Shown here one piece after another: positions 1-4,220 of a stretch of DNA of 64,000 bases (the first letter of the stretch is position 1; the number at the start of each line of letters is the position of its first letter). This DNA comes from Glutamicibacter sp. JC586 (GTDB lineage Bacteria > Actinomycetota > Actinomycetes > Actinomycetales > Micrococcaceae). The position numbers and the translations under genes were made by a program. The stretch is taken from positions 62,001 through 126,000 of the forward strand of contig NZ_VHIN01000005.1 of NCBI RefSeq assembly GCF_009805585.1, in the 5' to 3' direction. The notes under the pieces are model-generated. The model saw only the letters and a program-made list of their open reading frames with translations. It did no database searches and was not told the DNA's origin.

Positions 1-509
1 TGGGAGAACACAAAGTTCGTCTGCTCATCTTCGGTAATCAGGTGCCCTGCGCCACATAGTAGCTGTCGAGTGACCAAAAACGGAATGAGCATATCGGCAA
101 GTCGCTTAAACTCAATCTTGCGGGGAATCAGATAGTTCTCGTGGCATCCGTACGAATTGCCCGCCGAATCAACGTTGTTCTTGAACATATAGATTCGGCC
201 TTCGTGGCCTTCATCCAATAATTGATCTTCGGCTTGATCTACCAGATCAAGCATGAAGGCTTCACCGGCACGGTCATGGGCGATCAGCTGACTGAGTTGA
301 TCGCATTCAGCTGTTGCATATTCAGGGTGCGAGCCGACATCTAGATAGAGCCGTGAACCGTTTTCGAGGAACACGTTCGAGCTTCGCCCCCAGTTGACTA
401 CGGGCTTAAACAGGTGCCTCGCCGCATCTTCGGGAGTCAGCCGACGCCCGTCCGATGGGACATAGGTCAGTCCGAATTCCGTTTCAAGACCGAAAATTCT
501 GCGATCCAC
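1..509 (-). CDS. pafA: Pup--protein ligase PafA (5' part, runs off window)
   Basis: PafA ligates the C-terminal glutamate of Pup to lysines of target proteins, using ATP. Only the N-terminal 169 or so residues of an enzyme of about 450 are in the window. They begin [13 protein letters not shown], which carries the catalytic glutamate motif shared with Dop and glutamine synthetase folds. The later stretches [22 protein letters not shown] and GCHENYL are typical family motifs. The start is a GTG at 509. It lies 77 bp downstream of pup on the same strand, so the two are probably co-transcribed. In proteasome-bearing actinobacteria prcB and prcA sit in this gap; here there is no room for them. 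Confidence 0.95.
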
Positions 510-586
510 GCGTGGTTACTTCCCCTCGACTGCACAGATAATTTGAGTTGATGTCAGTTGATCAATGCCCTGCCGGCATTGCGGGA

Positions 587-772
587 CTACTGTCCACCTT
601 TTTGTACAAAGCCACGAACAAATTCCTCGGCGTTAGACTCAAGAACCGAGTCGATTTCGTCGAGCAGGTCATCAACGCCAGCGGATTGTGCGTTGGTGTT
701 AACTTGAATCTCTTCAGCTTCCTGCGACTGATTCTGGCTTGCGCGGCGAGCTGAGAAGCTTTCCTGAGTCAT
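587..772 (-). CDS. pup: Prokaryotic ubiquitin-like protein Pup
   Basis: A 61-residue, Glu/Asp-rich, probably disordered protein with the Pup C-terminal pattern: an acidic helix ([12 protein letters not shown]) and the end [11 protein letters not shown]. Pup is the small tag attached to lysines by PafA. The terminal residue is Gln, so Dop must deamidate it to Glu before ligation. The ATG start has a good upstream ribosome site (TTTAGGAG). It sits between dop (62 bp upstream) and pafA (77 bp downstream) on the same strand. The only lysine is the one next to the GGQ end. Confidence 0.97.
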
Positions 773-834
773 TACTATCTCCTAAAATCTAAAATCACGT
801 CTATGAACTGAGATTCATACCTATTCTGCGCTGA

Positions 835-2451
835 TTATCGGCGTCGAGCCAATTCATCAATGAACTCCGAAATCTGCAGCTCAGCATCGAATAGATCTCC
901 TACGCTCTTTCGCGTCCCGCCGAGTGGTTCGGCCATGTGGAAACGACTGATCTGCCGAGCACCTGGCACTGCAAAGGACAATGCGTCCCAGTTCGCTGCA
1001 ATCACGTAGGGCGCATAGCGTTGTAGGGCCATCCCCCGCAGATAAGCGCGGGTGTCTTCGGGTGGGTTCGTCACTGCTTGATTGATTTCGTCTTGGCTAA
1101 AGAGCGTTTGCATCGCACCTCGAGCCGCTAGGCGATAATACAAACCCTTCTCTGTGCGCAGATCGGCCCATTGCAAATCCATCATTGCGACCCTAGGGTC
1201 GGCAAGTGACAACTGGTGTCGGTCGGCGAATCCATTGATCAGCTTGTACTTTGCGATCCAATCAATTTGATCCGACGCTTCCAATGGATCGCGTTCTAAG
1301 ATGTCTAGAATGTTCTGCCAGCGTTCCAGAATTTCTGCGGTATCCGGATCATCAATTCCACGAGCAGCACAATACTTTTGACTGGCCTCGAAATAGAGCC
1401 ACTGAATCTCAATGGCTGTAAGTTCTCGACCATCTCGGAGCCTCACGGCAGTCTTCAGCGAAGGGTCATGACTAATTTGTTGGAGCGCTTGAACTGGTTC
1501 GGCCAGCTCAATGTCCGGTGCCATGTTCGCTTCAATCAGCGAGAGCACCAGATTGGTCGTGCCTACTCGGAGTAAGGTCGAAATCTGGCCCAGGTTTGCA
1601 TCCCCGATGATCACATGCAATCGACGATATTTGTCCCAGTTGGCATGCGGCTCGTCACGTGTATTGATGATGGGTCGGTTGATCGTCGTCTCTAGACCAA
1701 CTTCAGCTTCAAAAAAATCAGCACGTTGCGAGATCTGGAAGGCCGCCTTTTGGCCGAGCATGCCCTGTCCCACTCGCCCGGAACCACAGAAAATTTGTCG
1801 ACTCGCGAAGAACGGAGTTAATCCCTTGACGATGGAGGAGAATTCTACTTCTCGCGGAAGTAGGTAATTCTCATGAGAACCGTAGGAGACAGACTTGTTG
1901 TCGGTGTTGTTCTTGTATAGCAGTAATTCGCCACCGCCCAAACGTTGTGCCGTCGCTGCTGCGCGTCGCATCACCTCATCACCCGCTTGATCCCACAGAA
2001 CTGCTGCCCGTGGAGTTAGCGATTCTGGGCTGGAGTACTCTGGGTGCGCGTGGTCAACGTAGAGCCTGGCGCCATTGCCCAGAACCATGTTCATGACAAC
2101 TTCTGTTGAGTCTTTCTCTTGGTACAAAGTAGACCCAACACGGGCGTCATTGCCATCCAAAGCGATGGACTCAGCAGTCCAGATTCCAGATTCTACTAGC
2201 CCTGGCTCAACATCAGTCAGCTGACTAGGGTGGGCCTGCTCACGAGAGATAGAAAAACCACGAACGTCCTGCAAAGGCGACTCGTCCGCATAGTCCCAGC
2301 GTGCTGCCATTGCGCTTGAATTTTGCTGCGCAACTAGTTGAGCGTAGGCGTCAACAATCTGGGCCGAGAGCACCGTGGCATTGGCGTTGGGCATTTGTGG
2401 GCGAATAATCCCGTATTCAGTCTCTAGTCCGACCAGACGACGCGCGCTCAT
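835..2451 (-). CDS. dop: Pup deamidase/depupylase Dop
   Basis: Dop deamidates the C-terminal Gln of Pup and also removes Pup from substrates. The 538 residues are in the expected range and start [14 protein letters not shown], the paralogous equivalent of the PafA start. At about residues 64-115 there is the longer insertion expected for the Dop loop. [13 protein letters not shown] and [13 protein letters not shown] follow with the nucleotide and metal site residues. The ATG overlaps the stop of the upstream ATPase gene by 4 bp (ATGA), so translation is probably coupled. PafA is the only close alternative, and it is present separately downstream. Confidence 0.96.
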
Positions 2452-4130
2452 GAGGTGGCCTCGTGAGTAACCAAGGAACGAATGTTGCTAATCCGCTCCC
2501 CCTTGCGTCCTGAAATACGAGCCCAATCATCCGGGTTAGTGGTGTTTGGCATGTCTTCGTGTTCAGCGAATTCTTCTCGAACTGCACGGGACAAGTACTC
2601 CATTTTTAACCCGCGGTCTCCACCGGTAATCAGGGCTTTGATCGCGTGCTTCTTGGCCCGGTCAACGATGTTGTGAATTACCGCGCCCGAGGCAAAATCC
2701 TTGAAATAGAGGATCTCGGTTTCTCCGGTCACATAGGTGACCTCCAAGAACTCGTTGATCCGGTCTGTGGAATACATTTCCGACACAGTCGAATCAATCA
2801 TGCGCCGAATCGTAGCAGCCGCATCATCCGCATCGGCCGCCAGCTCGTCTTGATGCAACGGGAGTTTGGTGGTCAGGTATTTGCTAAAGATCTCGGCTGC
2901 TCCCTCTGCATCAGGGCGTCGAATTTTGATCTTCACGTCCAGACGACCTGGACGCAAAATGGCGGGGTCAATCATGTCCTCACGGTTTGAAGCGCCGATA
3001 ACAATCACGTTATCCAAGCGTTCAACTCCGTCAATTTCTGCCAATAGTTGGGGAACAATAGTGGTCTCCACATCGGAAGAAACACCGGTGCCACGTGTGC
3101 GGAACAGCGCCTCCATTTCGTCGAAGAAGACCACGACTGGGTCACCGTGCAGTGCCTTCTCGCGTGCTCTGGCAAAGATCAATCGAATGTGTCGTTCGGT
3201 CTCACCCACGTACTTATCTAACAGCTCCGGGCCCTTGATATTCAAGAAGTAGCTGCGGGTGCTGTTGCCTTCCTTGCGCTCGAGCACACGCTGTGACAAA
3301 GAGTGGGCTACGGCTTTGGCAATCAGAGTCTTGCCGCAGCCTGGAGGGCCATAAAGTAGGATCCCCTTTGGCGCACTCAACCCGTGCTCACGGTAGAGCT
3401 CTGGGTGAGTGAACGGCAATTCAACTGAGTCTTTGATCGCTTCGATTTGCGAGTTCAGCCCGCCAATATCGGAATAGGCAATTTCCGGCACTTCCTCGAG
3501 AACCAGCGATTGCATGTCTGTGAGCTGTACACGGCTCACCGCCATACCACTTCGTGAATCTACGGTGAGCTGGTCGCCAACGCGCAAATGAGTTTTACGC
3601 AGCGGGTCGGCCAATTCAATAACTCGCTGGTCGTCGGCTCGTGCCATAACCACTGCAAGATTCTCGTCTAGTAGCTCTTTGACAGTGACCAGTTCACCGG
3701 TTTCTTCAAATCCTAAAGCAGCAACGACGACAAGAGCTTCGTTCAGCAAGACCTGCTGACCAATGAGAACCGAGTCAAAGTCCATCAATGGGCTCACCGT
3801 GACGCGCATTTTGCGTCCGGAGTAGACAACATCAACGCTTTGGACGCCGGTGGATTCGATACCCTGACCTGGCTCAGGATGCTTGCGCGGATGTTTGGCA
3901 ACGACCGTGCCATGGCTAAAGGGGGTGTCTCCGTCTTTTTCCAGCGCTGCTTTCAAGGTAATGATTTGCTCGCGCGTGGTCTCTAGTAACGCAACTAGTC
4001 GCTGGTTGTTGCCGCTTAGCCCGGAAAGTTGCTTGTCGAGATTGCGATTCTTATCGCGCAGTACATTAACTTGGCGTTCGGTCATTTGCAGACGTTCTGC
4101 CAATTGTTCTGTCTCGTGGTGTTCGTTCAC
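2448..4130 (-). CDS. arc: AAA ATPase Mpa/ARC of the Pup system
   Basis: Ring-forming AAA+ unfoldase that recognises Pup through an N-terminal coiled coil and threads pupylated proteins. Seen here: a coiled-coil region in the first 65 residues (heptad-like, with [13 protein letters not shown]), an OB-type interdomain, Walker A GPPGCGKT, Walker B VVFFDE and the arginine-finger region ILRPGRLD. I prefer the GTG at 4130, preceded by GGGAG at suitable spacing; the frame is open to a GTG at 4199 with a weaker site. The C-terminus ends THEATS and lacks the GQYL-like tail with penultimate Tyr that docks Mpa on the 20S proteasome. This agrees with the missing prcBA genes. It overlaps dop by 4 bp. Confidence 0.93.
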
Positions 4131-4220
4131 GTTCCAACTCCCAACTTGCAACGTCGTTGCTAGCCGCCTAGCAACGAGTTTTTCCGGCACTCGGCGCACC
4201 GTCTTGATTCCATCCTAAGA

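Follow-up and report, generated by a model that had tools for sequence, protein, structure and literature searches.

The pup locus of Glutamicibacter sp. JC586

The window analysed here is a stretch of 64,000 nucleotides from a contig of Glutamicibacter sp. JC586 (NZ_VHIN01000005.1, positions 62,001 to 126,000), and its first 4,130 positions carry the genes of a pupylation system, which follow one another on the minus strand in the order ARC, dop, pup and pafA. The genes for the two subunits of the 20S proteasome core, prcB and prcA, are missing from among them. The features of the locus are as follows.

2448..4130, minus strand: gene for ARC, the Mpa-type proteasomal ATPase, tail-less; GTG start at 4130, stop at 2448; TIGR03689 with 763 bits against a cut-off of 505
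2448..2468, minus strand: ARC C-terminus THEATS and stop codon; relatives with a 20S core have a longer linker and GQYL here
835..2451, minus strand: dop, Pup deamidase/depupylase; above the TIGR03688 cut-off and matching the solved Dop 4b0r
587..772, minus strand: pup, 61 codons, C-terminus VQKGGQ; above the TIGR03687 cut-off
510..586, minus strand: pup–pafA spacer of 77 bp, where relatives have prcB and prcA; search for a prcBA remnant negative
1..509, minus strand: pafA, Pup ligase; GTG start at 509, first 169 codons, cut by the window edge at base 1; above the TIGR03686 cut-off

All four proteins pass their NCBIfam equivalog cut-offs (proteasome ATPase, Dop, Pup and PafA) and are thus typical of their families. 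ARC, for which a second in-frame GTG lies upstream at 4199, aligns with solved Mpa over residues 52–582, and its stop is overlapped by dop by four bases. The complete pafA, seen on the same contig (stretch L101) beyond the window, has 457 codons, and residues 2–455 of its product align with the solved PafA 4b0t.

The first-pass annotation had read the 77-bp interval between pup and pafA as leaving no room for prcBA, and the interval is indeed found at 586–510; with pafA starts set by BLAST, it measures 62–91 bp in all 12 sampled Glutamicibacter genomes, which include Arthrobacter (Glutamicibacter) arilaitensis. The draft genome of JC586 (3.52 Mb, 26 contigs, 100% complete) was searched as a whole with Pfam PF00227, a model of the 20S subunits that also detects HslV-type proteins (E. 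coli, for example, matches). There were no matches, with 10 of 14 control genomes positive, so that the search for PrcA/PrcB homologues called for at the outset returned none; the working controls rule out that prcBA was overlooked elsewhere in this genome. All 12 sampled members of the genus possess Pup, and none has a match to PF00227 or to Bpa (PF10759). Open frames ending in GQYL nowhere exceed 21 residues in the JC586 genome, and the Cpa-type domain CDC48_N is above cut-off in none of the 197 family genomes sampled, with one sub-threshold match (G178). In the spacers of the genus, no prcBA remnant was found by tblastn with PrcB queries; these were trimmed to begin behind pup, and untrimmed frames matched the pup gene itself. 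Among the 66 core-less family loci compared, only L134 of genome G008 gave a match.

The C-terminus of the ATPase was also described correctly from the outset: it ends in THEATS and has no GQYL-like tail, and GQYL is missing from ARC in all 12 genus genomes. The distance from the DDWA motif to the end of the protein is 27 residues in each of the 12, against 43–48 residues in 45 sampled relatives that have both prcBA and GQYL. Since the final residues vary within the genus (THEATS, NQRAAK, KAKDAL and others), the tail was lost and not exchanged for a conserved one. The same variability rules out a new conserved motif at the very C-terminus of ARC as a candidate.

The locus and its counterparts in the genus point to a pupylation system that is itself intact but has lost its 20S proteasome, the ancestor of Glutamicibacter being the most likely place of the loss; we put the probability of this reading at about 0.85. 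The earlier proposal of pupylation genes without a 20S core is borne out to that extent. If the proteins behave as published for their families, Dop would deamidate PupGln, PafA would join Pup to lysines, and ARC would bind Pup and unfold or pull apart the tagged protein with no hand-over to a protease, after which Dop would remove Pup for re-use. Likely outputs would be the disassembly of protein complexes, such as the release of iron from ferritin reported for Corynebacterium glutamicum, or reversible regulation. No protease partner of the known docking type turned up, and the simplest interpretation, by analogy with C. glutamicum, is that ARC would act in this genus by unfolding without degradation.

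Downstream of pafA, on the same strand, lie two more genes and then a frame of 665 codons (L101 7561–9558, minus strand), a putative fused PafBC regulator.

Counter-evidence and alternative readings

Several observations weigh against this reading or against arguments that have been used for it. All four genes are under purifying selection, and the median pairwise ratio of nonsynonymous to synonymous substitution (dN/dS) among the 12 genus genomes is 0.083 for arc, 0.150 for dop, 0.127 for pup and 0.102 for pafA, but synonymous sites are near saturation (mean proportion of synonymous differences, pS, 0.57–0.64; usable pairs 63, 46, 48 and 40 of 66), and therefore only the sign of selection can be read from these ratios. 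Four loci with a 20S core from the sister genus give similar values for the same genes (0.113, 0.149, 0.186 and 0.072, respectively). Ferritin as a substrate gains little from gene content: each of 13 genus genomes has two PF00210 (ferritin/Dps) genes, which in JC586 encode a ferritin-like and a Dps-like protein, but 14 of 14 control genomes are positive as well, such genes being universal, and the ferritin-like protein of JC586 falls below the NCBIfam cut-off.

The argument from the tail carries less weight than was first given to it. The first-pass annotation had used the tail as one of two signs that the core is gone; as a sign on its own, tail loss is not supported. In 115 family loci compared (L101–L215), ARC ends in GQYL at 45 of the 49 with prcBA and at one of the 66 without, but the association is not significant once shared descent is removed (five independent pairs, two concordant and three without a tail difference, p 0.5), and tail loss could thus not be shown statistically to track core loss. 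Four genomes, G001 (genus g2) and G093, G110 and G155 (genus g22), carry prcBA between pup and pafA and yet have an ARC without GQYL; G259 and G363 show the same combination in a second family, f11. G008 (genus g9) departs in the other direction, with no PF00227 match and yet an ARC that ends in NTGQYL. A separate loss in Glutamicibacter, finally, is weakened by a quick tree of 79 rows in which the fork between this genus and Paeniglutamicibacter has no resolution.

As to what the system does, one alternative makes Pup a purely reversible regulatory mark, put on by PafA and taken off by Dop, with ARC acting on few or no conjugates. We consider this unlikely, if the best placed of the alternatives: conservation of dop, pup and pafA, together with a Pup that terminates in GGQ, makes the on–off cycle complete, but within the genus dN/dS is lower for arc than for any of the other three genes, an indication that the ATPase is required. 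Less probable still is that tagged proteins continue to be degraded, with ARC unfolding them and ClpP1P2, FtsH or Lon finishing the task, so that the core would have been replaced. This would supply the useful output that purifying selection on ARC and the tagging enzymes requires, but the docking tail of ARC has gone and the variable last residues give no sign of a new conserved C-terminal docking motif.

The preferred reading, a loss in the ancestor of Glutamicibacter itself, depends on species relations, which we took from trees of ARC, Dop and PafA with the ARC tail excluded and long branches flagged. Glutamicibacter is sister to Paeniglutamicibacter with support of 100/100 in the careful mixture-model tree and 0.994 in FastTree, and Paeniglutamicibacter (of which P. 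quisquiliarum, L022, nests within genus g23) retains both prcBA and GQYL. Forcing Glutamicibacter together with g4 and g2 of a core-poor clade is rejected (p-AU, from the approximately unbiased test, 0.0018). One or both of the core-less genera g21 and g27 might instead share the loss, Paeniglutamicibacter being misplaced or having regained prcBA. Such trees stay above 0.05, with p-AU 0.054 for g21, 0.076 for g27 and 0.112 for both, and the unresolved fork of the quick tree is a second point in their favour; they are nevertheless 34, 24 and 27 log units worse, respectively, and face the full support for the sister relationship, so that we regard a shared loss as improbable. The claim of a separate loss thus stands in so far as the sister genus keeps its core and the grouping with g4 and g2 is rejected, and falls short where sharing with g21 or g27 is concerned; loss of the 20S core in the ancestor of Glutamicibacter is the probable course of events. 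That prcBA were merely missed through a gap or misassembly, as a draft in 26 contigs might suggest, can be dismissed, since a single contig carries pup and pafA without a break, 77 bp apart, which refutes it for the locus, and all 12 genus genomes show the same, G127 and G142 being single-contig assemblies.

Core and tail across the family and the order

Core-less pupylation is frequent in the family and in the order. Pup was found in 196 of the 197 family genomes, the single miss (G067) being 82% complete; PF00227 matches occur in 106, and the core is absent from 90 of the 196 with Pup. In an order-wide sample of 248 genomes, 144 have the core and 226 have Pup; because one of the 144 (G358, 77% complete) has the core but no Pup match, the core is absent from 83 of the 226. 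A set of 80 named loci, some from the same genomes as our numbered loci, yielded prcB in 74, all of which end in GQYL, and three without prcBA and without GQYL (MYb229, Kocuria polaris MS50-16 and a Micrococcus metagenome-assembled genome); the other three are interrupted by contig ends and were left out of judgement. The 79-row tree requires at least six changes of the core and at least four of the tail, and some 11 core losses are counted by hand on the FastTree tree if prcBA is assumed never to be regained. Core loss is thus frequent in both family and order, with ATPase tail and core lost in either order.

Two side observations belong to this survey. No Bpa match at E 0.001 was obtained in 15 of the 106 family genomes with a 20S core, ten of which have a GQYL-ended ARC, in contrast to the literature, where Bpa is said to accompany the 20S proteasome in every species. 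In genus g26, G077 (L164) is the sole core-less member, its ARC truncated to 28 residues from DDWA; the five further members that were fetched carry both prcBA and GQYL.

The most interesting by-product of the survey is the set of genomes whose core has outlived the ATPase tail. None of the six (loci L167, L189, L190 and L191 in f1, L234 and L235 in f11) has a Bpa match. Their PrcB proteins retain the active-site motifs, which we take to be the TTI start and the D and K of GDRR and EKVF, with a variant form in G363. In g22 the median dN/dS is 0.089 for prcB and 0.069 for prcA (three loci, three pairs each). This genus is mixed, five sampled members being without prcBA, and the ARC ends of these are alike.

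An alternative GQYL-tailed protein that might serve these cores was sought with the pattern GGNCARTAYYTNTRR, which yielded both ARC and Bpa in the controls G009 and G022. G001, G110 and G363 have no GQYL-ended frame by this pattern; G093 has one of 17 codons, G259 two of 10 and 33, and G155 two of 9 and 128, the last of which looks non-coding. On these results such a partner is not supported. Cpa (CDC48-like) as a substitute partner was likewise rejected, CDC48_N being above cut-off nowhere in the family sample.

In FastTree the PrcBA of g2 and g22 branch basally within the family and have a long stem. In the mixture-model tree they join g18, g23 and g30, as expected from vertical descent (87 in the Shimodaira–Hasegawa-like approximate likelihood-ratio test, SH-aLRT, not starred), and the family clade that contains them has support 100; horizontal regain from outside the family is therefore unlikely, and a regain from within the family may have occurred.

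G008 presents the opposite case (L134 2849–4719). Its pup–pafA interval is 272 bp long and contains an 87-codon frame, the first half of which resembles the start of PrcB (33.1 bits against 26.2 for the best of 500 shuffles) and the second half the end of PrcA (46.2 against 25.8), the remnant having been scored in all three reading frames. As read from these similarities, the frame is a prcB–prcA deletion scar, and the core was lost before the tail. The same genome contains a Bpa-like frame of 135 codons (L216 4998–5405, minus strand) that ends in STGQYL; it spans profile positions 51–161 only (E 4.4e-33), without the first 50, and no NCBIfam model matched it at 1e-5. Its presence in a genome without a 20S core contrasts with reviews, according to which organisms lacking the core also lack Bpa. 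G425 (L243, family f8) also lacks prcBA and has an ARC ending in ATGTYL; it is perhaps similar to G008, a recent core loss.

We would tentatively propose, at odds a little short of even, that there are two routes to core loss. On the first, followed in two families, uncoupling of ARC from the 20S core would have come first: GQYL and Bpa would have been lost and prcBA kept, diverging fast with active-site motifs intact, until repeated losses removed it as well. The cores that remain (G001; G093, G110 and G155; G259 and G363) would be 20S proteasomes without a GQYL-tailed activator, which either contact ARC in some different way or function apart from Pup. On the second, represented by G008, the core would have gone first, by a deletion that joined the beginning of prcB with the last part of prcA, with GQYL kept. 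The six core-bearing genomes without a GQYL-tailed activator would offer a direct test of whether a bacterial 20S proteasome works without that contact. We found no case of a tail-less ARC beside a 20S core in the open-access literature on GQYL and the proteasome, including the available sections of PMC4254994, PMC3511204 and PMC12288473.

Comparison with known systems

The novelty of the locus had been overstated, core-less pupylation being already published for corynebacteria (PMC3511204) and for Micrococcus luteus (PMC8223512). No report of pupylation in Glutamicibacter was found in the open-access literature. Corynebacteria are described as lacking the subunit genes, pup then standing directly before pafA and the ATPases of such organisms having no C-terminal motif (Barandun et al. 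2012, PMC3511204). Some actinobacteria are stated to have lost the 20S subunits, and M. luteus is named in the legend to Fig. 2 among the loci compared, a subgroup of which is described there as being without the subunit genes (PMC8223512). For C. glutamicum, the proposal is that ARC unfolds pupylated ferritin and that Dop recycles Pup (PMC8223512, PMC12288473). M. luteus and Kocuria appear in the tree of PMC6017811, where subunit-less genomes are said to be without Cpa. Propionibacterium acnes, finally, has a 20S proteasome and neither ARC nor Bpa (PMC4254994).

The 20S proteasome of P. acnes resembles those of the six tail-less genomes in being a core without the known GQYL-tailed activators (PMC4254994). 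It differs in that ARC is missing, whereas the six genomes have a tail-less ARC, and Glutamicibacter has no core. The core-poor clade that includes the sampled g4 and g2 is likewise set apart, for Glutamicibacter does not group with it.

In gene content, the Glutamicibacter locus is a known and common kind of core-less pupylation system, that of the Corynebacterium type. As in C. glutamicum, pup stands directly before pafA, prcBA is absent and ARC has no C-terminal interaction motif (PMC3511204), and M. luteus has the same kind of core-less Pup locus (legend in PMC8223512). Unlike that of C. glutamicum, the system belongs to another lineage, and its loss of the core would fall within the family, close to the divergence from Paeniglutamicibacter or later. 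The complete Pup–proteasome loci of Arthrobacter, Paeniglutamicibacter and others have the same gene order, except that prcB and prcA separate pup from pafA, and they keep GQYL. A genus-level and probably independent loss of the proteasome beside a core-bearing sister genus thus provides a clean pair in which the roles of Pup and ARC without degradation can be studied.

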